Source: an uncultured Clostridia bacterium (GTDB lineage: Bacteria > Bacillota > Clostridia > Oscillospirales > Ruminococcaceae). From it: a stretch of 34,457 nt of DNA. The translations under genes were made by a program, and so were the position numbers. Positions 4,642 through 34,457 of the stretch are shown here, one piece after another. Under the pieces are notes generated by a model. It was given only the letters and a program-made list of their open reading frames with translations, had not been told where the DNA came from and did not search any database. Numbering within the stretch: the stretch's first letter is position 1; each line of letters begins with the position of its first letter. The stretch lies in assembly GCA_947627985.1 (NCBI GenBank), contig CANQYD010000023.1, positions 1 to 34,457 of the forward strand, written 5' to 3'.

Positions 4642-7407
4642 TCACTGTATCACGACCTGAGCCGAGCTGCCCCCGCTCTTTCTCTTCGTCACGGCGATCT
4701 GCCTGCCGATCCGGGATTTCAGCTCCCCGACGTGGGAGATTATCCCGACGAGCCTGCCGCCGTCGGCAAGCGTCGCCAAGGCGTCGACAGCCTGTGAGAG
4801 GGTGTCGCTGTCTAACGTCCCGAAGCCCTCGTCCACAAACATCGCCTCGCACCTGATACCCCCGGCTGATGCCTGAACCTCCTCCGAAAGCCCGAGCGCA
4901 AGGCTTAAAGAGGCGATGAAGCTCTCGCCCCCCGACAGCGATTTTGCGCTCCTCTCACTGCCGTTGTAGTGGTCGATGACGTTCAGCTCAAGTCCGCTCT
5001 GTGCCCGCAGATTGTCTGCCGTCTTTTTCCTGATGAGGTCATATTTTCCTCCAGACATCTTCATGAGATGGAGGTTTGCGCGGCGGATTATCCTATCGAA
5101 AAACGCCGTCTGAACATAGGTCTCAAGGCTGATCTTTTCCCTGCCGCTGAGGTCTCCCGAAGCAGTCTGCGAAAGGGCGCTGACGGTCTGCCAGAGTCTT
5201 TCGGCGTCGGACATCTCCTCGCTTCTCTTTTTGATCTCTTCAAGCGCCGAGCGGTTGACGGTCAGCCTCGCGTAGATTTTGTTTTCAACATCCGAGGCTT
5301 CGGCGATTTTTTGATCCAAGTCCGATTTTTGGGATTTCAGCGCCTCGGGATCGGCTTCGATCGATCCTTTTAATAGCTCGGTCAGGCTCTTTTCCGAGGC
5401 GAGGGCGGAGTCATATTTTTCCTTAAGCTGATGAAACATCTCCCGGGCTTGCTCGGCTTCTTTTTTGAGATCGTTCCGCTCTTTTTCAAGATTTAATAGC
5501 CCCTGCCTCGCCTCGTCCGATGATTTGCATTTCAAGCCTTCTGCGAGTTCCCGGCGGCGGTCGTTAAGGCTTCTGAGCCGCTCTTTATCGGCTGCAAGAT
5601 CGGTCTCGGCAGAGGAAATATCCGGGATTATTTTCTCCTCGGCGGCTTGAAGGTCGGGGAGGATTTTATCAAGATCATTTCTGCGCAGGGTCCGCATTTC
5701 AGCGGCTTTTAAGGCTTTTGAGAGGAGGTTTTTGCGCGCGGCTTCGGCGGAATATATCTTCCGAAGATCATTTATCCCGTCCTCGTCCGAAATATCAAAC
5801 TCCCGGGCGAGCCGTTCGGCGTTTTCGGCTTCATGCTGATATGAAGCCTTCGCGGCGGCTGCTTTTGCGGACTTTTCGCTTGCGGTTTTTACGGCTTTTT
5901 CCCGCATTTTCTCGGCGGCGTTGACCTCCGATTCTTTGGGCGCCTCGGGAGGTCTGACGGCTTTTTTTGGGTGGATTTTCGAGCCGCAGACAGGGCAGGG
6001 ATCGCCTTCAGAAAGGGCTTCAGCCATGATCCCTGCCTGAGCGTCGTTGAAGAGGCGCCTTGCGTTCACAGCGGCTTCCGAGAGCCTGTCAGCCTCGTTT
6101 TGGGCGGCTGTGTATTCCTTTAAAGCGGCACTGTATGCCTCCCGCAGCTTCTCGGCTCCGGCAAGAGCGGTGCCGGCAGTCTCGATCTTTTTCAGGCGCT
6201 CGTCAGATTTCGAGATGTCGCTCATCAGTCTCTCACGCTCTTCGCCGGCGTTTTCAAGGGCTTTGCGCTCAGCCGTCAGCTTCTCGCGATCAGCTTTTTT
6301 GCGCTCATGCTCCTGCTTAAGATCATTTAACCTGCTTTCCTTTTTTGAAATATTTTCGGCAAGCTTTGATATATCCTTATCCAGTTCCGAGATCGCCTCA
6401 AAGGCTTTTATTTCGGGTCTCAGGAGGTTCATACGCTCCTCTAAACCGGCGTCTTTTTCGGGAAGATCGAGATCAAGCTTCTCACTTTTTTCTTTCAAAA
6501 TTTTCAGACGCGGCTCGGCTTCAAGGCGATCCGAGCGGCATTTTTCAATGCGTTTTTGGGTCTCGACGCGGCTCTCGGCTGACTTGATGAGCGCAGCCAG
6601 CTTTTCCGCTTCGGTCCGGAGTTTTTTGGTGTTTTCGGTCGCCGATTCATATAATTTCCCGTCCTCGGAGACGATATTGTTAATCAGCTCAATTATCCGC
6701 TCGGGCAAAAGTTCACCCCGGCGGGCGCATTCAATATCCGAAAAATACAAACTCTGCGGACCCGCAGTGATTCCCGCCGCGCACTTATCCGTCCACTTTT
6801 TTATCTCCCGAAGCCGCTCGGAGACCTCTTTTTCGGCTTTTGAAAGCTCGTCCTGAAGGGTTCGGTAGCCGTCGGTCTTAAAAATCTCACGGAAAATCTG
6901 CTGGCGGTCCTTGGTGTCGGCGAGGAGGAGCCGCAGGAAGTCGCCCTGCGCGATCATCGAAATCTGCATGAACTGCTGCCTGTTGAGCCCGATTATCTCC
7001 CGGATTTTTTGGTTGACGTCCTCTTTTTTGGAGATGACGCTGCCGCCCGGCAGGTACAGCTCCGCCTCCTGCCGCTGCTGTGTAAAGCCCTCTCCCCGGG
7101 ACTTTTTCCGCAGATATTCGGGCGAGCGCTTCACTTTATATATGCTGCCGCCGTCGGAAAATTCGAGGGCGACGAAGGTCGGGGTATCGTCGTCGGCATA
7201 TTTTGAACGGAGCATCGACGTCTCCCGGGCGGAGCCGCTTGCCTCGCCGTATAGCGCAAAGGAGATCGCGTCGAAGATGGTGGTCTTTCCCGCGCCGGTA
7301 TCGCCGCAGATGAGGTAGAGCCCGCCTCCGCCGAATTTATCAAAATCTATGACGGCTGACCCGGCATAGGGTCCGAACGCCGACATCTCAAGTCTCTTAG
7401 GTTTCAT
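4642..7407 (-). CDS. sbcC: SbcC/Rad50-type exonuclease ATPase subunit (921 aa)
   Basis: SbcC is the ATPase and DNA-tethering arm of the SbcCD nuclease, which opens and degrades DNA hairpins and protein-blocked ends. The N-terminal half of the ATPase has Walker A GDTGAGKT (35-42) and the Q-loop region near 154. Two long charged coiled-coil arms (about 180-465 and 490-740) flank the zinc hook CPVC (471-474). The C-terminal half has the signature LSGGES (about 823-828) and Walker B MFVDEGFG (856-863). The ATG follows the TAA of the ABC-F gene with no spacer and its ribosome-binding site (GGGAGG) lies inside that gene, so the two are co-translated. The usual partner sbcD is not next to it; upstream is an ABC-F gene and downstream the xylanase. 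A hairpin nuclease subunit is noteworthy in a region this rich in hairpins, but no link is shown. Confidence 0.9.
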   Translation of the reverse strand: MKPKRLEMSAFGPYAGSAVIDFDKFGGGGLYLICGDTGAGKTTIFDAISFALYGEASGSARETSMLRSKYADDDTPTFVALEFSDGGSIYKVKRSPEYLRKKSRGEGFTQQRQEAELYLPGGSVISKKEDVNQKIREIIGLNRQQFMQISMIAQGDFLRLLLADTKDRQQIFREIFKTDGYRTLQDELSKAEKEVSERLREIKKWTDKCAAGITAGPQSLYFSDIECARRGELLPERIIELINNIVSEDGKLYESATENTKKLRTEAEKLAALIKSAESRVETQKRIEKCRSDRLEAEPRLKILKEKSEKLDLDLPEKDAGLEERMNLLRPEIKAFEAISELDKDISKLAENISKKESRLNDLKQEHERKKADREKLTAERKALENAGEERERLMSDISKSDERLKKIETAGTALAGAEKLREAYSAALKEYTAAQNEADRLSEAAVNARRLFNDAQAGIMAEALSEGDPCPVCGSKIHPKKAVRPPEAPKESEVNAAEKMREKAVKTASEKSAKAAAAKASYQHEAENAERLAREFDISDEDGINDLRKIYSAEAARKNLLSKALKAAEMRTLRRNDLDKILPDLQAAEEKIIPDISSAETDLAADKERLRSLNDRRRELAEGLKCKSSDEARQGLLNLEKERNDLKKEAEQAREMFHQLKEKYDSALASEKSLTELLKGSIEADPEALKSQKSDLDQKIAEASDVENKIYARLTVNRSALEEIKKRSEEMSDAERLWQTVSALSQTASGDLSGREKISLETYVQTAFFDRIIRRANLHLMKMSGGKYDLIRKKTADNLRAQSGLELNVIDHYNGSERSAKSLSGGESFIASLSLALGLSEEVQASAGGIRCEAMFVDEGFGTLDSDTLSQAVDALATLADGGRLVGIISHVGELKSRIGRQIAVTKRKSGGSSAQVVIQ

Positions 7408-9330: not shown

Positions 9331-9359
9331 TTTCGGGGTCCTTTCAGGGTGATGAGGTC

Positions 9360-9388
9360 ATTATACTACTTTTGCGGGGAAAATGCAA
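9360..9388 (-). promoter_or_regulatory. Promoter of the ABC-F/sbcC operon
   Basis: On the minus strand TTGCAT (9383-9388), a 17-bp spacer and TATAAT (9360-9365) precede the ABC-F ribosome-binding site. Confidence 0.75.
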
Positions 9389-9404
9389 GGTGGGGAGGGG
9401 ACGA

Positions 9405-9517
9405 GGGCGGGAGCGGGGGTGGTGCCTCTGCCGAACCTTGGTAGGAGCTGAGGGTGGAAGATGAGAATCTGACCTCTGACGTCTTATTTCTGTACTCTGT
9501 GCAGCCGGAGGGTGCAC
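9405..9517. repeat. Right end of an X module plus heptad segment of the composite repeat
   Basis: This stretch is similar to 34255-34358. Shared elements in order are a GGTGCC block, a CC(A)TTGGTAGGAG-like end, GGGTGGAAGAT, GAATCTGACCTCTGAC and a C/T-rich tail leading into a cloverleaf unit. It appears to be a partial copy of the modular element whose fuller form is at 34164-34445. Confidence 0.75.
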
Positions 9518-9607
9518 GGGGGCGAAGCCCCCCGGCGCCGAAGGCGCCGGCTGCCACAGCTTCGCTGTGGCAGGGACCGCGCGCTTGCGCGCGGTCGGGC
9601 TTCGCCC
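9518..9607. repeat. Cloverleaf-like multi-hairpin repeat, copy A
   Basis: The left arm GGGCGAAGCCC (within 9518-9533) and the right arm GGGCTTCGCCC (9597-9607) are exact reverse complements. Between them are three perfect hairpins: GGCGCCGAAGGCGCC (9534-9548); a 10-bp stem at 9551-9573 with TTC loop; and a stem at 9575-9596 (GACCGCGCGC). The arms can pair with each other, giving a cloverleaf, or fold individually on GAA/TTC triloops. Confidence 0.85.
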
Positions 9608-9614
9608 ATACCTT

Positions 9615-9743
9615 CTGCTCCTATCAGGGTTCGGTGGGTTGTGCAAGCTCGGTGGCAGGGTCGGGTGCCTCTTACGGGGTAAAAGCAGGAGCAGGGAGGC
9701 GGGGACGGGGTTGGGCGCCCCTACCGGACTTTGGCAGGAGCAG
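9615..9743. repeat. X module, copy 1: about 129 bp with imperfect terminal inverted repeats
   Basis: It starts CTGCTCCTATCAGG (9615) and ends CTTTGGCAGGAGCAG (9743), which are imperfect reverse complements. It lies between cloverleaf copies A and B. The interior matches the module at 34164-34290 in length and in shared blocks such as GTGGGTTG and GGCAGGG. It has no coding capacity that I can support and resembles a miniature inverted-repeat element in size and ends. Confidence 0.65.
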
Positions 9744-9750
9744 GGGGCTC

Positions 9751-9828
9751 GGGGCGAAGCCCCGCTGCCGGAGGCAGCGCGCCGACGCTCCGCGTCGGCG
9801 GTGCGACTTCGTCGCACGGGCTTCGCCC
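9751..9828. repeat. Cloverleaf-like multi-hairpin repeat, copy B (divergent stems)
   Basis: It has the same plan as copy A: left arm GGGGCGAAGCCCC (9751-9763), three hairpins, right arm GGGCTTCGCCC (9818-9828). The internal hairpins are GCTGCCGGAGGCAGC (9764-9778), CGCCGACGC/GCGTCGGCG (9780-9800) and GTGCGAC-TTC-GTCGCAC (9801-9817). Their sequences differ from copies A, C and D, but every stem is perfectly paired. The interval 9830-9979 downstream shows no further structure that I can name. Confidence 0.85.
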
Positions 9829-9979
9829 TGCACTCCTCCCTCCTCCCGCACTCACCCGCAAAAAGAGCCGCCCCACCCCGTCGGAGCATTCCGCAGTCGG
9901 GTATGTTTTATTCACTCATTGTTATAGCTGAACGGGGTCTGCTTTACGCTTTGTTTACGCCAATTTTTTCTCCCCCACC

Positions 9980-10008
9980 TTTACACAACCGCACATTCAT
10001 GTTATAAT
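9980..10008 (+). promoter_or_regulatory. Promoter of the LytTR regulator gene
   Basis: TTTACA (9980-9985), a 17-bp spacer and TATAAT (10003-10008) form a near-consensus sigma-A promoter. It ends 14 bases before the ribosome-binding site AAAGGAGG (10023-10030), so the leader is very short. Confidence 0.8.
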
Positions 10009-10037
10009 ATACCCATCACCCCAAAGGAGGTCCAATC

Positions 10038-16377: not shown

Positions 16378-16558
16378 CTCCCCTGTAAAATTCTTACGGG
16401 GGGGGGGTAAAATTTTATATTTTGAATGTATTTATTGCATTTATATGTTTTTACCCTCGGTTTTAACCGGGAAATCAAATTGTGCCGAAGCCGGAAAATC
16501 TTTACGGGCGCAGGTCTTTTTTGCAGGACGTGTGGGCTATTCTGAAGGAGAGATTGAT
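16378..16558 (+). promoter_or_regulatory. Long structured leader with a G10 tract
   Basis: The predicted leader is about 215 nt. The C-rich stretch at 16378-16388 pairs with TTAC and the first Gs of a ten-G run (16398-16407) around an AATTC loop. A second small hairpin lies at about 16453-16470 (CGGTT/AACCG). I could not match the leader to a riboswitch class that I know. The ribosome-binding site GAAGGAG is at 16544-16550. Confidence 0.5.
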
Positions 16559-19500
16559 TTGAAAAAAATATATGTAAAGGCAGTATTTTGCAGGATATTT
16601 AAAGCCGTCAGACCGGTGCGCTTAGCGCAGTCGGTTTTGGCGGCGTGCCTGTTTTTGGGCGCGAGCGTCGTTGCGGCTCAGCCGGTGATGGCGGAGGGAA
16701 CGGCTGATCTTTTGGATTCGTCGCGCGACAACTATTATGCTTTGTACAAAGACACTACCGTTGACAGTCAAACAGTCACCAAAGAGTTAGTTGAAAGCGG
16801 AACATTTGACAGGCATATGAGTTTGTGGAAACTGATGGTTAAGAATTCGCCGACCGCGGTAAACGGCGCTAAGAGAACAGCGGATTCTTTCGGCGGAGTT
16901 ACCAATCAGCTCAGGGTCAAGTTTTATGCATATGAGGGAGAAGTGGCATTTCTCGGGAGCTCCTCGTATAAGAACGGCGCGATGATTACTTTGCCCGACG
17001 GCAAAACCGAAAATCTGTCTCTTTCGGCTACACAGGGTCATATCACTTCAAAGGCGTCATATATGAACGGACCTAATGGTGTATACAAAGCTGTAACCGA
17101 CGATGACGGAAGAAGCTTGGGCACAAATGAGGCTACACCGACAACGGACGGTTATAATGCATTTACTTATGAAATAAAGCAGTCCGGAGTTTACATAGTA
17201 GAATTTTACGCCGACGGTGCGTCTAACGCCGATGTGAAGAGATCTTTTGATGTCGCTGATAATACCTTGGCTAACAACGGCAATGAATACAATCAGCTTT
17301 ATGCTTTTGATGTAACCGTCTGCAAAAACACGGGCTCAGAAGCAGCACCGCATTATAATGCTACGAGCGGTCGTGTCTGGCTGGACGCATTGACCGGGCA
17401 AATGAATTCCGATAGCGGCTACGGCATGTACGGTTATCTGTACACCACGACCCGAGACGGCTATATCTGGAGAGTAGCTCTCAACGGAATCCAACCTTAT
17501 ACGGTAGCTCTTTATGCCAATCAGCGCGGCGGCATAGGAAAGGGTACCAACGCTTCTGCATATCATTCCGTGCATTCTCCGATCGACAATTATACCTCTT
17601 TCGATTATTATAATGACATGCTCGATAAAAACGGCAACGCCGACGGTCTGATGATATACGGTCCCGACAACGAGACAACCGATATCGACGCGCCCGACCA
17701 CATGTTCTTCAACTATCCCGACAAGGACCTCCCGGAATCGATTGTTCCGAAAGAGGCAAATGATGATTTCTCCGCGACAGGTATTGAGTTTGACGGTCGT
17801 GACCCTACTATCGAGGAAGTTGTCAATAAAGACGGAAGTCTCGATGAAGAAATTGATAATACCGGAACCGTCGGCGTCGGCGGCTACTTCACCGTGGATA
17901 CCAAGGGCGCGACTTCTTACCGCATTATTATCGATATGTCGAACATGTATGCCCGCTATTATCACGGTGAAGATGGCAACAATATAGGCAGCAACATGCA
18001 CCCCTCGTCAACGGATCACGATGAGGAAATCTGCCTGAGCACTCCATGGGCTGATTCTAATAATGGAGAGCATATTAACTTTATTTATTATAATTCCGAT
18101 GACAACAGTTGGTATAACATTGAAACACAGGTAAAAGACGCTGCCGGTCTTTACGACATGCACCCGATTAACAACGGCAATGACATGAACAAAGTGGTCA
18201 AGTATGTGAAGCTTGAGCCCAATGAAGTGACAGCGCTCGGACTTCCCAACAACCCCAACGGCGCCGAGGAAGTAGGAGGTACCGGATTTAAATTCAAGAG
18301 CCTCGGAAAAATCATGCTCGGAAACGCCGCCGTTGAAGGTCAGACCGACCGCATTTACTGGAACGGCAGAGATCAGTGGGGACGTATTCTGCCCGTTGGT
18401 CAGTACTTTGGCAATACCGGGCGCGGCAAAGTCTATGCCGAGGCTAAGGCGGGAGAGGTTCATTTCCCGATTTCCGACGCGGAGAAAGTGCCGAACGGTC
18501 TCGGCGTTTGGCTGATGAATCCCCCGGATTCCGTTCTTAACAATGTAGGAAACAGTAACGCATATTACAAAACTGCCGCCGACCTGCGCTCTAAGCTATA
18601 CTATAATAACCGCGAAAAGAGCTTGTTAAGGGATTATAGAACATCGTGGCAAAATAACAAGGGCTCAGGTTCTCTTTTGGCAGTATGGAATCTGCCGAGC
18701 TATAATTCAAACAATGATGTCGGAGAAGCATACGGTGCCGGACTTAACAGAGGTTGGTTTAAAGAGCAAGGCGGGCACGATTTTAATTCGCAATTTGAGG
18801 ACGTAAGTATTGAAGGTAAGCCCTCTTACAGCGACGCGGAAGGTAAAAATCCGACCAAGACTGCCGGAGCTATAAAAAGCGACGGCGCCGACCACGGCAT
18901 TTTCGACGTCTGGACGCATGTCATCTCGCCGAACAGTGTTACTCTCGACGAGCCTATCACGCTTTATCACTTTGCCAACAGAAAGATCATCACCGGATTC
19001 GTATTTCTCGATACCCCCGAGCCGGGAGCTGCTCAGGGCGAATATAACCGCATGACCAACGACCACGAGCTCGAAGGCGCTATCATAGTTGCGGAGTACG
19101 GAGACACATATTACAGGGATAATAAAACAGAAAACGAGGGACGTAATTCCGGACAGACCCGCTGGGTCCACTATGAGGCAAAGACCGATACCGACGGATA
19201 TTACTCTATCCCCGTTGATCTGACGGCGTTCGGTGAAGATGATATTGTAGATGATGAACACGGTCAGCCTACTTACCCCGTCACCATCTGGGTGTATTAT
19301 AATGAAAACATCAGCGGCGCGATCACTCATAAGGTGACGACTGTAAATAAAACTGCTGCGAAGTACTGCTCACCTCAGGAATATTCAAAATTTATAGGTC
19401 AGGAAATTCACAGCGAAAGCGTGCCGAGCGTAAGTAAACAGACTGTAAATATCCCTAAATATATTACAGATAGTCGAGGTACTGCAAATGTTTACCTCAA

Positions 19501-22500
19501 GGAGATTTATGCCGGGCAGGTGGGATATATCGCGGAAGCGGTGGATCAGGCTCTGACGATTACCAAAAAATGGGAGCCGTCCTACCTAAAGAGCTCTACT
19601 CTCGAAGCAAGTTTTACCATCGTAGGCATGAAGGAGGATAACAGGACTTCTATTGAAGAGTATTTTACCAAAAATGCTGATACGGAAGGCAAAATTACCG
19701 TCACCGAGTACAATGCCGAAACCAAACAGGTCGAGGAGAAACCGTATGATCAAGCAGCTTATACTGCAAAATACGGCTGCAAAAAAGACGGCTCAAAAGG
19801 CACAACAACTGCGGAAAACAGCTACATGGCTGTCCAGCACGACCCCAATTTCCCGAGCGACGAGACGGTTGCTTCTATCAAAGAAAAGGTAGACGCTTAT
19901 AACGCCGCGCACCAGTCCGATCCCATTACCGTTCAGGACGTTCTTGTAAACGGTAATGAAACGATCATGCCCGGCTTTACAGAATATGGCGATAAAATTA
20001 TTTACGTAGTCGAAAACGCCACCGTAGAGGAGGCGCGCGGCGGCATATATACAAATAAGATTCTGCCCAAGCAGACGTATGTTCTTTCAAATGATAATAT
20101 AACGGTTAATTCCGGCGGCATGATCGTTTACCGGGCTTATGAAAATCCGCTCGGTTCGTCATCGTCGGGAGAAGAGGAAGCGACAAAAACCAAGTACGGG
20201 ATTGAAAGAATCGGCAACGAGTGGACATACACCAATATCCTTAATCTTACTAACTATACCCTCACCCTGTTCCACGACAAAAACGCCGATAATAAATTGA
20301 CGTTTAATGATACGGTATTACCCGGCAAAACCGAGGGCAACGGCATATATGAACCGCCTACGGAGACACTGGACGGCGATGACCCGATAGAAGAAGCCAC
20401 CGTAACGATATCTAAGATGGACAACGGCGGCACGACCGAGCTGGGTCAATTCACCCATACTCTGAGCGATGAGGCTTTGAATGAGCTTTTCAACGATTCT
20501 GACCGTATTCGGAGATTTGAAAGTACGCATTCGGGATTGAAAGCTAAAGATTCTTCCACTAACGAATTTACCGAAGATTACAAAGAGTGGGCTGAAAAAG
20601 AAATCGACGTGTCCGCCGATGACGACGGCGTTCAGAAATGGATTTCAAAAAATCAGGAGTTTAAAACTGACGAGCACGGTCAGATCACCTTCGAGGGGCT
20701 GTCCTCCGGCGAGTACAGCATTCATGTGACATATAAAACCGAAACGGATTACAACACCGTCACCGTTGACGGCGCCAACAGTTATGTAGAAGTCACGCAA
20801 AACGAGCTTGACAATAACGAGTATATACAAAAGGTCACGATAGGCACCGAGAGCAACTATTATTCAACAATAGGTCTCGGATTCAGGGCGGAAATGCCGC
20901 TTGAACAGATAATTAACATTTATAAGAATCTTAACATCGAAGCGAGACCGACCGGAACGCTGAGTAACGATGTCAGTCTTTCGGACAGCTTTACCGTGAC
21001 CGCAAGCGCGGGATTTTCCGGGACTACTTCGCCCGCAATTCCCGCGGACGCTCCAAAGGATCTTGCCAAGCTCACGGATTCTCTTGATGACAATGACAAG
21101 GACGATCCTGTGGAAATGACCGCAAAGGTTACGGCAGATGATCCCGATAAAGGTTATGACGCCGAGTTTGATGAGAAGGGCAAGAACATCATCTTCTACG
21201 CGCCGGGGCAATATACGATAACCGTCAGCGAGAAAAAAGGCGACCGCGGTTATATTGATTATGACGGTGACGCGCATGAAGTCACGGTGGTAGTTGCGAA
21301 CGAGCCGGACAGCAACGGCAAGCCGAAAATTACCGTAAAGAAAGACGGAACCGACCTCAGAGAAAAGCAGGAAGAAATCATAATCGACAACACCCTCAAC
21401 ACGGGATACGTCACCGTCAATAAAGAAGTTGTCGGAAATAGCGCGAACCCGGACGATGAGTTTGAGTTTACCTTCACGGTTACAGGTGCCGGCGGGGTGG
21501 GGAAATTCCATACGCTCGGGGTTTATGACAGTGACCTTGAAAGCGGAGGCAAGTTTACGCTTAAAGACCGTCAGTCCGTCACGATTTATGATATACCCGT
21601 CGGCGCGACGGTGAAGGTCGAGGAGACGGAGAATACTGCCTATAAGACGACTATCGAAGGCGAAGAGATAAGATCGAAAACGGTCGAAATCGACAAAACC
21701 GGGCAAATAATTAACTTCAAAAATGAGCATTTAGAGAATGACCTTTCGATAACTCAGACTGTCGATAAGAGCGATCCGATGATTGAAGAGGCTGACGAAA
21801 AGTTTTCCTATACAATCACGATAGCCGATACGGATTATGATTTTGATCTTGAGTATGAGATCGACGGGGTTACAAGCACTCTCGAATTTAAAAAAGGAGT
21901 TGCTAATCTTGAGCTCAAAAAAGGTCAGACCGTGACGATCAAAGGTCTGCCGAAGGGCTGCAAATACACCGTCGCGCAGACCTCAATGCCTGTGCATTAT
22001 AAGCTCACCAAAATCAACGGCGAGAATGTTACAGTTAAAACTATAACTGATTCGCTTGAAGAAGACGAGACCGTGACCTTTAACAATGAGTTTGAGGCGG
22101 GCGATCTAAAAATCGATAATACGGTTTTCGGTGCAGAAGGCGACGTTAATTTTGAATATACCGTGGAGCTTACGCCTCCCGACGACGGCGTCACCCTTGC
22201 CGAGGAATATACCGTAGAGCCCGGTATTACACTTAAAAAAGTCAAGGAAAATGAGTATTCCCTGACATTCAGCATTGCCAAAGCTGAGGAGAATAAGACG
22301 CTCACGATAAAAAATCTCCCGACCGGGACAAAGGTGAACATAACCGAAAAAGTGCCGGCGGGATATGTCATCACAAAGCGGAATAATTATGAAAATATCG
22401 AGATTTCCGAAGCGCCGCAAACCGCAGAGTTTGTGTACAATGTCATTCCGACCGCAGAGGTGACGGTGAAAAAGGAATTTGACACTACACTTTTGACGGA

Positions 22501-25500
22501 CGGAGAGTTTGATTTTGAATTCACCGTCGAGCAGACTGACCCCAAATCGGGAACAGAAGTCGATCTTAAAGGCGATCTAAAATTTGAGAAACTCTCAAAG
22601 ACCAAGAACGAAGGCGAAGTCACGCTTACGGGTACATATGATCTTGATTATATTACCCTATTTAACAATAAAGCCGACTCCGTGACGTATAAATATACCG
22701 TTAAGGAAACCGACGGAAAACTCGGCGGAGTTGTTTATGACAGTGAAGAGCATGATGTCGAGATTAAGATATCCATGATAGAAAGCGGAGAGCTGGAAAT
22801 CAGCACTCCGTCTGAAGTGGTCCTCAAAAATAAATATGAGCCCAAGCCGACCGACTTCACCGTCAAGGTTCACAAGACGATATCAGCCACCTCCCTGCCG
22901 CAGAAAGATAACGAGTTTACTTTCAAGGTCAGCGCTGAGGACGGCACTCCTATGCCCGGCAATACTTCGGTGATCGTGACCGTTCCCGCAAATGAGGATG
23001 AAAGTGCTGTTGACGGCGATTGGAAGATCACCTTCGACCATGCCGGAGAGTATACCTACACCGTGACCGAGGAAGAAGTTTCTATCCCCGGGTTCAGCGG
23101 CACGGCTCCCGGGCAAACCGTTACCGTAAATGTCGAAGATAAAGACGGCGTGCTTTCCGTCAAGGAGTACACCGTCGGCACAGCGACGGGCAAGGGCGAT
23201 GAGTGCACTCTCACGTTCACCAATACCTATTCTCCCACCCCGGCGGAGTTTGAGATTAAGGTCTCAAAGACGATAAGCGATGACAGCGAGCCCCTGACCG
23301 ACGACTATGACTTCGGCTTTGAGCTTTCGGCAGGCGGCGGAGATAATTATCCCGAGATATCCGATAATACCGTGACGGCGACGGTCGCCAAGGGCGCCAA
23401 AAAATCCGCTGACGAAGCTTTTGGCAAGCTCAGTTTTGACACGGCGGGGACATATACGTTCACCGTGACCGAGACAAATGCCGGCGACAACTTTATCAAA
23501 GCGCCCGCGCAGACCTTTACCGTGACGGTTACGGATATGGGAGGAAGGCTTGCCGTTACCGGGGTGAGCGGAGGCGATCCGTCGGGCTCCGGGGAGTATA
23601 GCGGCACCACCCTTACGTTTGAAAATAAATACGCTCCGAAGCCGGCTTCTCTGACCGTCAAGGTCGATAATATCGTCGCGCTTCAGGATCGCCATGCGCC
23701 TTTGGCTGACGGGCATGAGTATGAATTCTCCTTCGAGCTTTCCGAAGACGCGGGCGATCCCACAGGAGCCGTTCTTCCCGGCGTTCTTCAACAGCTCACC
23801 GATAAGATCGATAAAGATTTTACCGGATATGCCGAAAGCTATAAGACAAACGCTTCCGACCGCACTCAGAAGATCGAGTTCGACAGGATAACATTCTCCA
23901 AAGCCGGAACCTATAACTTTGCCGTGACGGAGGACGATATCCTGACGTTTACCGGCGAGACCCATGACAGCACTCATAAAGAGGCGTTTATCACATATCC
24001 TTCGAGCGACAGGATCGCCGTCGCCGTTACCGTTGAGGATATTAACGGTCAGCTGACGGTGACGGGAATTACGGTCGGCGGAACCGCACAGACTCTGAAC
24101 GCCGTTGACGCCGAAGCTCAGCTGAGGTTTATAAATGTTTACCATGCCGATCCGTCGCATTTCATCTTCGAGATCGACAAGACCGTGAACGGCACTCTTC
24201 CCGACGATTGTTTCACCTTTGATTTTGATGTTGATCTTATCGATTCGCTCCACAATCATAAGGTGAATTACGAAGGCGGTAAAAACACCGCTTCAATATC
24301 GGGAGATGAATTCAAGACCGCAAGATCAGCTGCGGGATATGTCTATGTTGATTTCAACGAGCCGGGAGATTATACCTTCACGGTCACGGAACATATTTCA
24401 AAGAACGGTACCGACGACGGCTCGTCTGCGTTTAAATCTACCGACGTAAGAACGCACACGGTGACGGTAAACGTCGTTGACAGCGTCGGCAAGATGAGCG
24501 TTGCAAGCTACCAAGTCGACGGAGGAATAATTGTAACTCCTTCGGTATCCGAAGAGTATCTTGTCGGAAACATCAGCTTTACAAACAACTATGAACCCAA
24601 GCCCGCAGCTCTTGATCTTAATATTGAAAAGAAGATGTCTGACGGCAGCAACTCCCTGCCTAAGAGCTATGATTTCGGCTTTGAGATTTCGTCCGCAGCT
24701 TCCGACGGCGCGACTGTCGGTACTCCCGAGCTGACGGTAACTTTAAACGCGGGGGAGACAAGCGGCGCCGGTACGTCTCGGATGACATTTAATAAGGCGG
24801 GGACATATTCCATCACCGTCGGCGAAGATGTGATAACCGAGCCCGGGTTTAAAAATCATCCCGAAGATCAGGAGATCGCCGTTACCGTTGAAGATAACGG
24901 CGGAGAGTTGTATGTCGGGAGCGTGCAGGTCGGGAAAAACGTCAGAAGCGGGACTCCCGAGGAGCCGATAAAGGATCAGACCGTGACGTTTATAAATACA
25001 TACGATCCGACCGACGCGGAATTTGAGCTCAACGTGCATAAAACCGTGACGGGTAATCCCATTCCGAGCAAAAAGAATTACGGTTTTATGTTTAACGTCG
25101 CGGCAAGAGGCGATAATGCCGGCAAGGTCTCGATATCAAACTCTCAGGCAGCCGTCAACGCCACTGCGGCGCAGCTCAACGCGGGCGCAAACGCAAGCTT
25201 CGGCAGGGTGACTTTCAGCGAGAGCGGGGACTATATTCTCATAGTGACCGAGAGCGGCACTCTTCCCGAAGGCTTCAAAGAGAACCCGAAGGAGTACGCT
25301 CTGAATGTTCATGTCGATGACAACGGCGGCTCGCTTGCCGTCACGAAGTGCGTGACCGACGGCAAAGATATTTTAAAATCGGGCTCGGCGACGGTGGATA
25401 TCGAGAATATCTACGATCCCGACGACGTGAGCTTTGTCATCAGGCTCAACAAGACGGTAAGCGGCAGCACCGCTTTGGACGGGGACAATGAGTATGACTT

Positions 25501-28500
25501 TACATTTGCGTTAAGCGGCATAAGAATCGGCGGAGGAACCGCTCCGACGGCAGCCGCCCAGACTGTCGAAAACGTAACCGAATCCACCAAAAACAGCATT
25601 TCCCCGCTCAGCTTTGAGCTTACCTTCACCGAGGCGGGACTTTATACATTCAACCTCAGCGAGACGGTCGCCGATAAGTACGGCACTGCCGGCAACTGCG
25701 GATTTACACTTCCCGAGCTTCCCGCGGTGACGGTTACGGTGGTTGATAACGGCACCGGAAGCCTTGAAATCGAATCCTACAGATTGGGCTCCGGCGGTAA
25801 TGAAACAGGAAGCGAAGCGGTCATAGAAGCCGTAAACTTCTATAATCCCGTAAAGGTCGAAGATTTTGAGGTATTTATCGACAAGACCGTCGTCGGCGAC
25901 GAGCTCCCCGAGGGCTACGGCGAGTTTGAATTCACTCTTTCTCCCGACCCCGGAAATCCCTCGGGAGCGGACTTGGACGGCAATTCCGTGAAGGTAACGT
26001 ATTCTGATCTCGGCGCAAGAACGGAGGGGAAATATACCCTTAAAGACGGCGCAAAGAGCATATCGAAAATAGACTTTACGGAAGCCGGGACATATAACTT
26101 CACCGTGACGGAAAATCTCGGCTACGGCGGATTTACAGCCGATCGGGAAAGCTTCGCTCTGACGGTGAACGTCATCGACGACAAGGGCGTGCTTAAGATA
26201 GAGAGCTGCTCGGTGTCTCCCGATAACGGCGCTAAAATTTCGGATAATTCCGTTACAATCCCGTTTGTGAATGAATTTGACGCGGGAAGCACTTCCTTAA
26301 ACGTCGCCGTCAATAAGACCCTGACCGGAAACGCTCTTCCCAAAGGTCACGATTACGCCTTTACGTTTACTCTTTATGAAGACGGCGCTCCTGTCCTTGA
26401 AAGGACCGTCTCCGCCGGCGAGCTTACTCCCGGTACCGCGAAAGAGATACCCTTAGGCTCCATAACCTACGAAGCCGCGGGCAAGCATGTCTACACCGCG
26501 TCCGAGACGGTTACGGAAACCGTAAACGGCGAGAAGATCACAGACGTAAACGGCAATAATCACGGCTTCGGCAGGACCGACAGCTATACTTTGGAAGTTA
26601 CGGTTGATGATAAAGTCAGCGGAAGCGAGCAGGCTCTTGAAGTCGGCTGCGAAGGGGCTTCGGGATATGATACTTCCAAAAATCTCGCAACTCTTGACTT
26701 TACCAACACCTACACGCCCGAGGCTGCGGAATTTGCCCTCGGAGTTGCAAAGACCGTCAGCGGAAACGCTCTTCCCGCCGGTCATGAATATGATTTCGCC
26801 TTCACCCTTGACGGCGATTTCAGCGATGAAAAGACCGCGTCCGGAATCACCGAGGGCAATAAGGATTCAATCCCGGACATCATGTTCGATCTTCCCGAAT
26901 TCACCGAGGCAGGGGAGTATAAATACACCGTCTCTGAAAATGTGACCGAGAGATTTGAGGGAAATCCCGTCGCGGGCAAGAGCGGCTTTGCGGCAGTTGA
27001 TCCCATTGATGTTACCGTTAAGATTGTAGATGACGGCGGCAAGTTAAGAGTTGACGAATGCACGGTTGGCGGCGTATCTACGGGCAGGACCGATAAATAT
27101 CCGATACCGATAACCAACAGATATATCCCCGACTCCGTCAGCGTTGACGACCCGAAGACCCCGGGAGGCACTGATAACAACGTCGTTCAAATTTCAAAGA
27201 TTTTAAAGACCGAAAACGGCACCTTTATCGACTTCCCCGAGGCGTTTGCGTTTAACGCGACCGTCGCCGAGATCGACGGTGCGGAAAAGGTTCCCGAGCC
27301 CGGTACTGCCGGCTGGGGCGATGATTTCACGCCGTCCGCGGTCATTATGACGACCGGAGGAAAAGGCGGCAGCGGAAGCGTATCCGTCAGCGGGTTGAGA
27401 TTTTCAAAAGCCGGGGTATATAAAGTCGCCGTCGCGGAGGACAATTCCCCATATGCCAATTCTTACGGCAGCATAAGAAAAGATACGCATTCCGCCGAGA
27501 TCATCTACACCGTCTCGGACGAAGGCGGAAAGCTTGTCATCTCGGACGTCGATTACACAAAGACCGAATTTGTCAATACCTTTATCCCGAACCCGAAGAC
27601 GGTCGAAATGACCTTTGACAAGAAGCTCATAAACACGATGACGGGCGGAGATCGGCTTGCTTTGACCGAGGGTATAAACGACGGGCTCTACAACAAGTTT
27701 AAGACCCTCTATGACGGCAGGTTCAGCTTCACGATGAGCCACGACATCTTTGATCCAAAGGATATCGAGACCGACGTCGCGGATTCGGGAGCCGTAATGT
27801 CCTCCGACGGAAAAATAAACGCCGTCAATAAGATGAACAAGGTAAACCTCGGAAACGTAATCATCAAGCGCGAGGGAAGCTATACCTTCGTGATCAGCGA
27901 GAATCAGCCCTTAGAGAGCAGCAGAGCCGAGCGCGTCGGCTACGGTCGCAAACCGATAACCGTGACCTTTGACGTCACAGCCGATCCAAAGACGGGCGAA
28001 CTTTTGATTTCAGAGGACTACATGTACGGCGAAGACAGTTATGCCGAAAAGCCCGCGTTTATAAATACCTACGGACCGATACCCTGCACTCTTACCGTCA
28101 CCACACGCGTTGAAACCGACCCCGAAGGTCTTGAATTCGACAGAACCAAGCCGTTTGAGTATGAGATAAGAGTCTGGGGCGAGCACGTCGTCCCCGACAA
28201 AGATCGGGACTCCGAGGGCAGGCGCACCGCTACGTTCAGAATATTCTATGAAAAGCCTATTGCGCAGCTTGCGGCTCTTGAAAACGACGGTGAAGAGGAC
28301 ACGAGCGTTCCGGTAAAATTTGCCGAGACTGCCGAAAACTCCGGCATATACTCCTTCACCGTCGCGGGATACGGCGACAACAGCTTCACTATTGAAGATA
28401 TTCCCTACGGCAAAGTTTACTACTCTGTCACTCAGAAGCTCGGAGCATCCGATAACGCGCTCGGATATTCCTTCATAGATGTTAAGGAAAATTACACCTA

Positions 28501-31500
28501 TAAAGATTCCGCCGAAGCTGTCTCAAGGACAGAGGATCTGACCGACGCCGTTCGGGACGGTCCGCAGACGGAAACGGGAGAATTCTTCGGAGAATTTGAC
28601 GGCACAGTCATAACCTACCGAAATCTCTATACCGTAACCTCCGAGAGCGAGACGGTGCCCGCAATTGAAAAGAAGATGTCGGGCGAGAGGGGACTTATTG
28701 AGGGCGAAGAGTACGGCTTTGACGTGACCCTTGAGGATCCCGAAGGAGGAGCCTTGCTTTTAGGCGGCGAGAGGACCGTTACGGCAGTCGCTTCGGCTGA
28801 TCCCGTAACCGGTGAAGTCACGGCTGAGGCGGAAATCGGAAATATCACCTTCACTAAGCCCGGGGTATATACCGTCTCCGTCAGGGAGATAATCCCTGCG
28901 GGCGAACTTAAGGGAGTTTTGTATGACAATACCCTTTACACGGTAGTTTACACCGTCACTGATTACGATCCCGCTGCGGGAATCAGGGACGGAAAGCTTC
29001 GTGCGGACAGGAAGATTTACGCGGACGGCGAAGAGGCTGAAAGCATAGTCTTTACAAACGCCTACTCCGCTTCCGATACCGGTGAAGTGATCTTTGATAT
29101 CTCGGATATCGTCATTCCTTCCGACCCGAATGCCCTTGCCGACGATGAGGAGTACAGGTTCACCGTAACCGATGAAAACGGTCTTAATAAGGATACCGAA
29201 GCTTTGGCGACGGTGTATTCAAAAGATTATGACAGCGCGGAAGGATATGCCTCCGGAAAAACGTCCGTAAGCCTCGGAACATTCGGCGATCCGGGAACCT
29301 ACAGCTTCACCGTCTCCGAAATCCCGGGAAATACTCTCGGAATGATTTATGACCAAAATGTTCACACCGTGACGGTCGAGGTCAGGGACAATCTTAAGGG
29401 CGGGCTCGAGTACGAGGTCTATGCGGACGGGATATTAAACGGCAGCGCGGAATTTGTCAACCGCTATATGACCGGAAGCGTCACCGTTACAAATACCCTT
29501 ACCGGCACCGGAATAGACGCAACTCTGCCGTTTGAATATAAAGTGACGGTGACGGGCGCTGACAGTCTCCCGGGAATATATAACTGCGAAGTCGGATCAT
29601 CGGGAGGAATATCTCCCTATTCGTTCGGCGGGATCATCAACCCGCGCAGCACTTCATCCTCGGGAAAACTGTCAAACGGCGGAACGGTTGAACTTAAGCA
29701 CAACGGGAAATTCACAATATCGGGAATACCCGAGGGCGCGATGGTAAAGATCGGGCAGCTGCCTATGGAAGGATATACCACGTCGGTAAACGTCGAGGAA
29801 AGATATGACTTCTCGGCGACAGTCAGCGGGTCGGAAGAACTCAGGGCTGAATATCTCAACCGTCATTACACCGAATACGGCAGAATTGACGGCTTTGTGT
29901 CCAAGAGCCAGACATATCCCGGCGACGGCGAGAGCGTTCGCGTCGGAGATACTCTCAGTTACTCCATCGACTGGCGCAACCCGAAGTTAAGAGACTCCGT
30001 TGTAATCATCAAAGACACCCTTTCGGAAGGCGTCGATCTTATCAAAGCTTCGGACGGATATGAATACGACCCCGCCGCCCGCACGGTCACATGGAAGATA
30101 AACGCCAAAGGTCTTGAAGCGGGATCGGTCGATCTGAGCGTAAAGGTCAACGAGCAGGCTCCGAAGATCGGCAGCATAAACAACGCTTCTCATGCCGAGA
30201 TTTATGATGATACCGTTTCCGATCCGGAAGAAGACGAACCGTCTGCCGAAGACGATTCCGAGGAGATAATAAACCCCGTCGTCGCTTTAGGGCTTGTAAA
30301 GAATGAATCCCTTGACGGAGGCGAGCCGGTTGAATCCTTGAAAGTCAGAGCGGGAGATATCATCACCTACAACCTCACCGCCACGGTTTCGGGACCCGGA
30401 GCCGAGAATCTCACGATAGCCGACGTTATCCCCAAGGGGCTTGAATATGTCGGATCAAGCGACAAAAACGCAGTTTACGACCCCGTGACGGGAACCGTCA
30501 GATGGACGTTTGCGGATACGGTCGAGCCCGGCGAGATAACCGTCAGCTACAGCGTTAAAGTGCCGGAGGTGAGCGCGCCTGCCGGCTGGAGCTCCTGCGG
30601 ATATGTCTATGAAGGGCATGAAGCGGCTCCCGCGAGCGTGGGCGAAGATTATCCCTGGATATCTTCAAATTATGTTGAGGCGCTGCCCGTTTCCGATCTC
30701 ACCGTTAAAAAGACTGTGCATTCCGATGACGGCATAATTCCGGCGGGTATAAAATTCAGATTCACGGTGGAGATCACCGATGAAAACGGCATGCCTGCTT
30801 CGGGACTTATCTGCGAAAAAGACGGCGTAAGAAGCTCGGTGCCGGGCGGCAGACTTCTTGTAAATCTCGGAGACGGCGAATCCGTCACCCTCTGCGACGT
30901 CCCTGCCGGGTCGGCATACACGGTCTTCGAGGAGCCTGTCGCGAATTACAGTCCCGATCCCGGAAACGTATACGGCGGAATACTTAAGAACGTAGATACA
31001 GACGTCGGGATTGTCAACAACTATGAAAAACTCGGCAGCATAACAGTCACAAAGACCGTCAAGGGCACCGACGACGATATGCTTCGCAGGTTCGGATTTA
31101 CCATTACCCTTTCGGATACTTCAATAAACGGAACCTACGGAGACCTTGAATTTATCGGCGGTACGGCGCAATTCAGCCTTGCAAACGGCGAAGAGGCAAC
31201 GGCTGCCCTGCTTCCTGCCGGCATTGAATATACGGTTTATGAAAACGCCGGCGACGCCGAAGATTTCACAGTCACCGATTCCGGAAATACCATCGGCAAG
31301 GTCCCCGAAAACGGCGAGGCGACGGTTGCATTCATTAACGAAAGGAAACCCGTCGAGTCAGGAGGACTTACCGTTAAAAATACGGTTATAGGCGGCTCAA
31401 GGGCTTTCAGCTTCGAGGTTCGGGTCTACGGAGATCAGCCGATATCCGGTCAGTACGGAGACATGGTGTTTGACGGCGCCGGGACTGCGGTATTTACACT

Positions 31501-34069: not shown

Positions 34070-34155
34070 GGGGCGAAGCCCCCGGCGCCGAAGGCGCCGG
34101 CTGCCACAGCGAAGCTGTGCCAGAAGCCGTGCGAAGCACGGCTTGGGCTTCGCCC
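34070..34155. repeat. Cloverleaf-like multi-hairpin repeat, copy C
   Basis: Left arm GGGGCGAAGCCCCC (34070-34083), hairpins at 34084-34098 (GGCGCCGAAGGCGCC), 34101-34123 (10-bp stem with one mismatch, GAA loop) and 34124-34144 (AAGCCGTGC-GAA-GCACGGCTT), right arm GGGCTTCGCCC (34145-34155). It shares hairpin 1 with copy A, while hairpin 3 differs completely. Confidence 0.85.
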
Positions 34156-34163
34156 ATACCTTC

Positions 34164-34290
34164 AGCTCCTATCAAGGCTAAGTGGGTTGCGCCAGCCCGG
34201 CGGCAGGGCTGGGTACTTCTGCCAGGGAAAGGTAGGAGCAGAAGGCTTGGGCACGGGGCTTGGTGCCGCTACCGTGCTTTGATAGGAGTT
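34164..34290. repeat. X module, copy 2: about 127 bp with terminal inverted repeats
   Basis: It starts AGCTCCTATCAAGG (34164) and ends CTTTGATAGGAGTT (34290), reverse complements with two mismatches. It occupies the same place after a cloverleaf as the module at 9615-9743 and shares blocks with it. Confidence 0.7.
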
Positions 34291-34345
34291 GCGGGTGGAA
34301 GATAAGAATCTGACCTCTGACTTCTACCCTCTGTCCTCTATGCGA
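34291..34345. repeat. Heptad segment between X module and cloverleaf copy D
   Basis: GGGTGGAAGATAAGAATC leads into TCTGACC, TCTGACT, TCTACCC, TCTGTCC, TCTA heptads. The same order and nearly the same sequence occur at about 9450-9500, tying the heptad family to the cloverleaf element. Confidence 0.8.
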
Positions 34346-34358
34346 CCAACGGGAGCGC

Positions 34359-34457
34359 GGGGGCGAAGCCCCCGGCGCCGAAGGCGCCGGCTGCCACAGC
34401 GAAGCTGTGGCAGAAGCCGTGCGAAGCACGGCTTGGGCTTCGCCCATACCCCCTGCT
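34359..34457. repeat. Cloverleaf-like repeat, copy D, and start of a further X module
   Basis: Left arm GGGGGCGAAGCCCCC (34359-34373), hairpins at 34374-34388, 34391-34413 (perfect where copy C has a mismatch) and 34414-34434, right arm 34435-34445. The last bases (ATACCCCCTGCT) match the junction to an X module, so the tandem array continues past the window. Confidence 0.85.

Follow-up and report, generated by a model that had tools for sequence, protein, structure and literature searches.

REP, BIME and REPIN sequences are short palindromes dispersed through intergenic DNA in high copy number, often in clusters. Passages of PMC3733652 give REPs as palindromes of 20–40 bp bearing GTAG/CGTC tags, and passages of PMC3116915 report compensatory changes in REPIN spacers and mention a 'clover' configuration. 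The cloverleaf described here is likewise a short, dispersed, high-copy and often clustered intergenic palindrome, but it differs in having one closing arm around three hairpins, a length of 75–89 bp in the genome studied and neither a GTAG/CGTC tag nor a consistent Y1 transposase.

In double-hairpin elements of Allomyces, as in the repetitive hairpin-forming elements of sponge mitochondria, stems are said to be conserved and loops to change; two types lie a few complementary substitutions apart, and triple-hairpin regions are mentioned for Igernella (passages of PMC2800124). Both the sponge and the Allomyces elements differ from the cloverleaf in belonging to organelle DNA, and those passages describe no enclosing arm pair. 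Yeast mitochondrial GC clusters (GC42) are mobile palindromes in which changes are concentrated in the loops and the stems are spared, loop diversity exceeding the median synonymous rate of most genes (passages of PMC4478555); unlike the cloverleaf they are 42 nt long and mitochondrial, and no fixed three-hairpin cloverleaf with rewritten stems is described in those passages.

Two further systems bear on how such structures change and how they may be recognized. Hairpin template switching produces loop inversions and compensated stem changes, both of which the cloverleaf displays, but in the passages of PMC8794818 that describe them the work concerns RNA genes (microRNAs and rRNA), whereas the cloverleaf is a dispersed bacterial repeat. 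Integron attC sites are also read as folded DNA hairpins (PMC11641012), and a stem-loop survey is, by its excerpts, among the closest published accounts (PMC1590033). In full-text searches of open-access papers we recognized none describing the three-hairpin cloverleaf; the arm sequence turns up in seven papers, all with unrelated titles.

Four cloverleaf copies in one contig

The window, meaning the whole 34,457-nucleotide stretch analysed (contig C23 of its genome), holds four copies of the element, A to D. Each has an exact 11-base arm, GGGCGAAGCCC, paired with its exact reverse complement around three hairpins, as the preliminary description had proposed; the starts given there were 1–2 bases too early and are corrected here to 9520, 9752, 34071 and 34361. 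The features are as follows, none being assigned to a strand:

9456..9519: repeated flank of copy A, a heptad-like (CAGARNT)n array that reads on the minus strand (boundary by eye)
9520..9607: copy A, cloverleaf of arms and three hairpins (arm match, DNA fold)
9520..9530: copy A 5' arm, GGGCGAAGCCC, which can itself fold as GGGC-GAA-GCCC (sequence)
9532..9550: copy A hairpin 1, CCGGCGCC(GAA) (sequence)
9551..9573: copy A hairpin 2, CTGCCACAGC(TTC) (sequence)
9575..9596: copy A hairpin 3, GACCGCGCGC(TT), with a CTTG loop if the last C-G pair opens (sequence, DNA fold)
9597..9607: copy A 3' arm, the exact reverse complement of the 5' arm (sequence)
9608..9680: repeated flank of copy A, 'CTTCTGCTCCTATCA' type (boundary by eye)
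9752..9828: copy B, cloverleaf (sequence)
9763..9779: copy B hairpin 1, CGCTGCC(GGA) (sequence)
9780..9800: copy B hairpin 2, CGCCGACGC(TCC) (sequence)
9801..9817: copy B hairpin 3, GTGCGAC(TTC) (sequence)
34071..34155: copy C, cloverleaf with one mismatch in hairpin 2 (34101–34123) (sequence)
34156..34230: flank of copy C, the same 'CTTCTGCTCCTATCA' type as beside copy A (boundary by eye)
34298..34360: flank of copy D, the same heptad type as 9456..9519 (boundary by eye)
34361..34445: copy D, cloverleaf with three perfect hairpins (sequence, DNA fold)

Eleven of the twelve hairpins pair without a mismatch, the sole exception lying in 34101–34123. Internal stems of unrelated sequence had been noted between copies, and this is borne out with pairing kept: no stem of B is common to C or D, and hairpin 3 of A is unlike its counterparts in C and D. 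The loops do switch between GAA, TTC, GGA and TCC (hairpin 2 has TTC in A versus GAA in C and D), but that set was incomplete, the loop of A hairpin 3 being TT. Folded as DNA with one additional base on each side, copies A to D reach −43.7 to −51.3 kcal/mol (z −7.8 to −10.7), and none of 200 shuffles did as well; copies A and B folded as RNA give a very stable cloverleaf of the same form on both strands. An Rfam scan of the window returned no family at gathering score, with four sub-threshold matches in 9331–10036 around A and B (the best, xerDC, at 23.6 of 72.5 bits, E 0.15), and ARAGORN found no tRNA.

A genome-wide family found by shape

The window copies belong to a large family, contrary to the possibility that the genome would hold no others. 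Two arms separated by 43–73 bases occur 190 times in the 2.16-Mb genome (72 contigs) against none for the reversed-pattern control, and the arm by itself is found at 215 places on one strand and at 210 on its complement, where the controls give 3 and 0. Many of the listed copies stand in tandem, spaced ~285 bp apart. For closer analysis we took the window and 40 further stretches of the same genome (823 kb, chosen in part for arm-pattern matches), which contain 73 elements with at most one mismatch per arm, 68 of them exact. All 73 divide into three hairpins, 62 without any stem mismatch, over a length of 75–89 bp; the commonest type, defined by the five bases adjoining each loop, is that of copy B (19 of 73). 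The segmentation script prefers 3-base loops and always looks for three hairpins, and its scores are at least 15.7 for these 73 elements versus at most 1.3 for four viral chance matches.

A search by shape alone recovers the same architecture. With a descriptor requiring a perfect outer stem of at least 8 pairs around k perfect hairpins (stems of at least 5 pairs, loops of 3–5 bases, linkers of up to 3), the 823 kb yield 62 shapes for k=3 and a single one for k=2; k=4 and k=5 are absent, and the 32 shapes at k=1 are ordinary long hairpins. Five Markov shuffles of the 823 kb gave k=1 once and nothing else. Three-hairpin elements number 37 in 432 kb versus none in one Markov shuffle. In stretches of 20 genomes beyond the genus (336 kb together) k=3 does not occur, nor does any shape with at least two hairpins in ~532 kb of genus non-carriers (partly the same stretches as the 336-kb set).

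Arms of non-standard sequence were found among the shape-only elements, in 1 of 34 distinct elements of the genome and 21 of 87 in the wider set. Some are truncated or one-base variants, and others (for example GCCCGCAGGGC, GGGCGGAGCCC and GGGCAAAGCCCC) pair through two-sided changes. The arm, taken with four bases on each side, forms a hairpin of at least 4 pairs in 54/54 shape-only elements of the genome, in 14/15 from a second genus and in 77/86 of the wider set, this last count being biased in that the standard arm fetched most of the wider-set loci. What is conserved, as judged by comparing sequences, is a shape: complementary arms around three hairpins with mostly 3-base loops, the arms usually folding as mini-hairpins too.

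Pairing is kept while sequence changes

The preliminary description had claimed a fold that outlasts changes in its sequence, and this holds across the genome and across species. We measured covariation by counting pairs against shuffled and slid controls. At the five pairs adjoining the loop, 219 hairpins of the genome are 99.0% Watson–Crick versus 48.7% with permuted partners, and the 54 distinct stems among the genome's hairpins are 99.3% versus 44.6%. A MAFFT alignment of 29 sequences contains 63 double-changed cells versus 20.7 when shuffled; as the first MAFFT alignment had split some stems of unequal length, we used a covariance model instead, built from the 29-sequence alignment. Run on 1.13 Mb drawn from 72 sources, training sequences among them, this model gives 208 matches with E ≤ 0.001 when both strands are counted. 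In 50 stretches of non-carriers and outside genomes (868 kb) it gives none even with E ≤ 0.1.

The best 150 of the 208 matches (134 distinct, possibly with both strands of one element) form an alignment that is fitted to the structure and so leans towards it; 98.9% of its cells are paired, with double changes at 30 of 34 pairs. Its covariation score of 0.656, versus 0.122 shuffled and at most 0.055 slid, is far above the controls, contrary to the possibility that covariation would not exceed the background. Selection does not follow from covariation alone, since compensated changes and flipped loops can also arise from template switching at hairpins (passages of PMC8794818).

Intergenic placement and the case for DNA

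A coding-score gene finder places none of the 73 elements over a predicted gene by more than 20 bases, so that high copy in intergenic DNA, as in REPs and REPINs, is found here too (190 matches; 0/73). A plain-ORF test had put 34 of 73 inside ORFs of 121–588 aa, a placement that the coding-score finder removed entirely. Of the 44 gaps that hold elements 7 are convergent, versus 40 of all 251 gaps of at least 100 bases, so there is no orientation bias; the elements lie up to 1566 bases from gene ends and up to 1036 from gene starts. A terminator-like T run (TTTT within 12 bases, either strand) accompanies one of 73.

Mismatches amount to 17 of 1840 pairs in the genome (five G-T, three A-C), to 49 of 2389 in 87 other exact-arm sequences, one of them a Streptomyces chance match (14 G-T, 14 A-C), and to 1 of 422 in 14 elements of the second genus, a further one there going unsegmented owing to a duplication. 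A helix kept as RNA should be enriched in G-U, and the lack of a G-T excess over A-C therefore counts against RNA; RNA required from both strands would lack G-U too, and this limits the wobble test.

GCGAAGC-type DNA mini-hairpins are extraordinarily stable. Triloops of the form c(GNA)g or its complement TNC make up 177 of the 186 in the genome, and both senses are common. The 5'-most hairpin, on whichever strand, favours GNA (40 versus 14 among distinct stem triples of the genome, p 0.0005; 80 versus 49 in other sequences, p 0.008, both values treating hairpins as independent). In the 19 members of the copy B type, hairpin 1 always has GNA and hairpin 3 always TTC, with a middle loop of TNC in 7, GNA in 10 and another form in 2.

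These counts bear on whether the cloverleaf could be an RNA element, that is, a transcribed intergenic structure that stabilises or ends mRNAs and could do so from either strand since it is near-symmetric under reverse complement. The location between genes and the very stable RNA folds of copies A and B on both strands would fit, and if both strands had to fold, the missing G-U pairs would be accounted for as well. Yet convergent gaps are not occupied in excess, a T run within 12 bases occurs once in 73 elements, loops are common in both senses, distances to gene ends and starts run to 1566 and 1036 bases, and no Rfam family reaches gathering score in the window; we consider an RNA element unlikely. 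The preliminary description had left the fold open as DNA or RNA: a maintained fold stands, and the evidence points to DNA over RNA. Given the lack of a G-T excess, the loops in both strand senses and the direction-blind placement, we read the cloverleaf as an element of DNA.

Distribution and a second arm

The exact arm occurs in 15 of 31 genomes of the genus, the present one included, versus 0 of 29 outside it, at 1 to 190 copies among the 15 carriers. Isolate names suggest a rabbit-gut habitat ('Lapin'), together with one rumen genome. Among the matches listed in a scan of genome contigs, three hairpins are present in 72 of 74 distinct sequences from Clostridia/Ruminococcaceae MAGs versus 1 of 13 from other phyla. 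The arm-pattern matches in other phyla are chance ones (among 80 listed loci, 12 of 13 distinct sequences are without three hairpins); the one passing locus among the matches listed, L094 of Streptomyces, has short stems and two mismatches, and a Bacteroides locus, L104, was left out for its Ns.

Covariance-model searches matched 2 of 245 genomes of the order, namely the present genome and G171 (another genus of the same family), and 1 of 291 genomes of the class, the present one; such searches miss elements with other arms, as in G102, which carries them yet went undetected. G171, which represents the second genus, and G102 follow the three-hairpin plan but close it with another arm, GCGGC-GAA-GCCGC; a scan of 395 genomes of the family detected this second arm in 2. 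The arm sequence is therefore replaceable, with the arm design, itself a triloop palindrome, persisting. A query with copy D against 72,556 plasmid and 50,697 phage records gave no match, and of four viral contigs with the arm pattern none has the three-hairpin layout.

Nearly frozen stems, fast loops and inverted loops

Orthologous sites show which parts of the element change. Of the three close species G171, G705 and G706 of the second genus, two or three share each of six element sites. Over seven pairwise comparisons that omit indels, loops differ at 22/63 positions (35%), flanks at 91/1024 (8.9%), stems at 2/422 and arms at 1/168 (stems and arms together, 0.5%); with sites treated as independent, the contrast with flanks has p 5e-8 for loops and p 2e-15 for stems plus arms. 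The indels set aside here and at the pst locus below include a duplication of 15 bases in the 5' portion of a G706 element relative to G705 (L348 ~1800–1830), consistent with slippage. At another locus of this genus, L327 ~1365–1497, G705 has a structured insertion of ~130 bp with several short-loop hairpins that is absent there from G171 and G706; among the sequences compared it was seen in two overlapping G705 loci alone.

The second set comes from a pstCAB-phoU-phoB-like region (L141:11703–18361), 91–92% identical to the present genome in five other species, in which PstC, PstA, PstB and PhoU score above curated cut-offs and PstS and the PhoB and PhoR-like genes fall short of them. The window's ABC-F gene, in contrast, reaches only 69–74% identity in its best-matching genomes. 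Across several species the pst region keeps about 90–93% identity, versus about 70–74% for the other gene compared, suggesting that it may have been transferred recently. The element stands at the same place in 6/6 species. Against one reference row and without indels, stems plus arms differ at 4/400 positions, flanks at 98/1440 and loops at 8/45, a loop excess over flanks (p 0.012) smaller than in the second genus: ~2.6x the flank divergence versus ~4x. Flank divergence is no clean neutral rate. Stem constancy could come from correction, selection or conversion between copies.

Some loop changes are exact inversions. Hairpin 1 at the pst locus has GAA in G028 and TTC in the other five species, and an exact TTC/GAA inversion occurs at two loci. 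With both ortholog sets taken together, every position has changed in six 3-base loops; two of these are exact inversions, three fall one base short of inversion and one is neither. At least two exact inversions among six has p 0.019 (chance 1 in 27), and at least five within one base p 0.006. Since loop inversion with an intact stem is the product of hairpin template switching, we take it as evidence that the DNA hairpins form in vivo.

Template switching might on its own make and repair perfect palindromes with neither function nor mover, and the cloverleaf would then be a mutational by-product. The loops inverted at orthologous sites agree with this, as do the similar events and compensated changes described for RNA genes in passages of PMC8794818, but such a by-product would leave unexplained why shape-only elements have three inner hairpins when two, four or five hardly ever occur, why arm and flank types are repeated, why 177 of 186 triloops are GNA/TNC and why the family is restricted to certain clades. 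We hold it to be quite unlikely.

The architecture, the covariation, the intergenic and direction-blind placement, the near-frozen stems, the fast loops and the exact orthologous inversions can all be read from the sequences themselves. They are probably best explained by a dispersed, intergenic, non-coding DNA repeat whose shape is what is maintained and which lives like a REPIN but by the tests made is not a REP, one in which hairpins forming in the cell, hairpin-templated copying and selection keep both the pairing and the count of three. Such an element would act as DNA, folding on a single strand, as a cruciform or on an exposed replication template. Template switching would repair stem pairs, now and then replace them and flip loops, and selection on the fold would hold the hairpin count at three. 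It would then be a case of a dispersed repeat upheld by its architecture instead of its sequence, and would speak to two old questions, whether DNA hairpins or cruciforms form in bacteria in vivo and how perfect palindromes persist.

SbcD is the partner of the hairpin nuclease SbcC. Loss of SbcCD is rejected as the cause of palindrome survival, SbcD being above cut-off in 9 of 15 carriers (the present genome included) versus 2 of 16 non-carriers; with SbcD in the present genome, the palindromes persist despite it. The ~200 copies in this SbcD-bearing genome of a gut bacterium would form a natural experiment, with the exact inversions as a record of folding. The window itself has an SbcC-like gene (4642–7407, minus strand, 921 aa) that scores under the curated SbcC cut-offs and has a GH10 xylanase-like gene on one side and the ABC-F gene on the other; the SbcD match of the genome lies elsewhere, on C3.

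Flanks, neighbours and mobility

The flanks are mosaics of a few repeated types, the three main groups holding 47, 35 and 11 half-flanks of the 73 elements. We rejected the idea that they extend the palindrome outwards (mean score of an element's left against its own right flank 7.17, below 8.91 for mismatched pairs), and also a link to one gene class: over 86 of the 88 neighbouring genes, the two of at least 1500 aa being left out, the commonest Pfam families match 3 of 86, and the neighbours are varied. Near one set of tandem copies, a T-box leader (L133:4695–4924) lies 5' of a predicted gene at 4991–7264.

Known mobile systems offer two comparisons. A true REP/REPIN family would be moved by a REP-associated tyrosine transposase, Y1, of the IS200/IS605-like kind, and the high copy number, intergenic location, palindromic form and tandem clusters of the cloverleaf are as expected of one. 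The Y1 family (PF01797) is present in 7 of 15 carriers versus 1 of 16 genus non-carriers, but a Y1 match is missing from 8 of 15 carriers, of which six are estimated to be 97–100% complete, and Y1 without an exact-arm element is seen in 12 of 29 genomes from beyond the genus; the link is weak and confounded with clade. Within 6 bases of the arm, GTAG and CGTC each occur in 0 of 146 flanks and GGAG in 4; within 12 bases the counts are 1 for GTAG, 0 for CGTC and 51 for GGAG, this last being a raw count. A match to a known repeat family had been raised as a possible objection; in the parts of that question covered, Rfam at gathering score in the window and the REP tags, none appeared. We regard a true REP/REPIN family as very unlikely.

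The core pair of an attC site is RYYYAAC/GTTRRRY. If the cloverleaf were a structure-read recombination site of this kind, a tyrosine recombinase would act on its folded single strand, much as attC sites are read as DNA hairpins (PMC11641012), and the tandem elements ~285 bp apart could be taken in the same sense. The core pair, in either order, is found within 30 bases of the arms in 0 of 73 elements, only ~200 bp separate tandem copies and the neighbouring genes are varied, so that an attC-like site strikes us as highly improbable.

Signs of movement, namely a clean empty site, a target duplication or an intermediate, are absent among the orthologs compared and the flanks of the 73 elements. 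Where orthologs were compared for empty sites, the site was shared, the region had been replaced or synteny was lacking: in the G016 ortholog another gene has replaced the pst intergenic region with its element, and at a further site the element is in G706 as in G705, the flanking parts in G171 being on different contigs. Direct repeats of 5, 6, 7 and 8 bases at equal offsets up to 30 bases from the arms, such as the target-site duplications of a MITE would give, are not in excess, numbering 2, 1, 0 and 0 versus means of 1.0, 0.58, 0.04 and 0.0, a range beyond which the true ends may lie.

The three-hairpin cloverleaf as a mobile element is accordingly a candidate reading, weaker than its maintenance as a shape. 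A REPIN-like, non-autonomous element might be spread in trans by a shape-reading enzyme. Put tentatively, it is possible that the cloverleaf is a shape-coded mobile or selfish bacterial DNA element, with an enzyme that recognizes exactly three hairpins closed by a self-complementary arm, stems that can be rewritten during spread and loops flipped by hairpins in the cell.

Between copies A/B and C/D, the window carries a 5846-aa open frame (16445–33985); within its first 5000 residues, seven stretches match the streptococcal pilin isopeptide linkage domain. The heptad flank type also occurs alone elsewhere in the genome: arrays are present at 9456–9505 and 34298–34345 of the window, in L203, L198 and others, with 86 fuzzy matches in the 823 kb, many of them away from any cloverleaf and some, by eye, beginning near gene ends. 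Recurrent among these heptad matches is a second repeated hairpin, 'gatgcggtcgaagcgaccgcatcaagaggacagaagtcag', with a conserved tail, 'ttgtcagaatttcaaggtgtcaccgttggt', examples being L195:3482(−), L204:19134 and L140:2189(−) (script offsets on the named strand).
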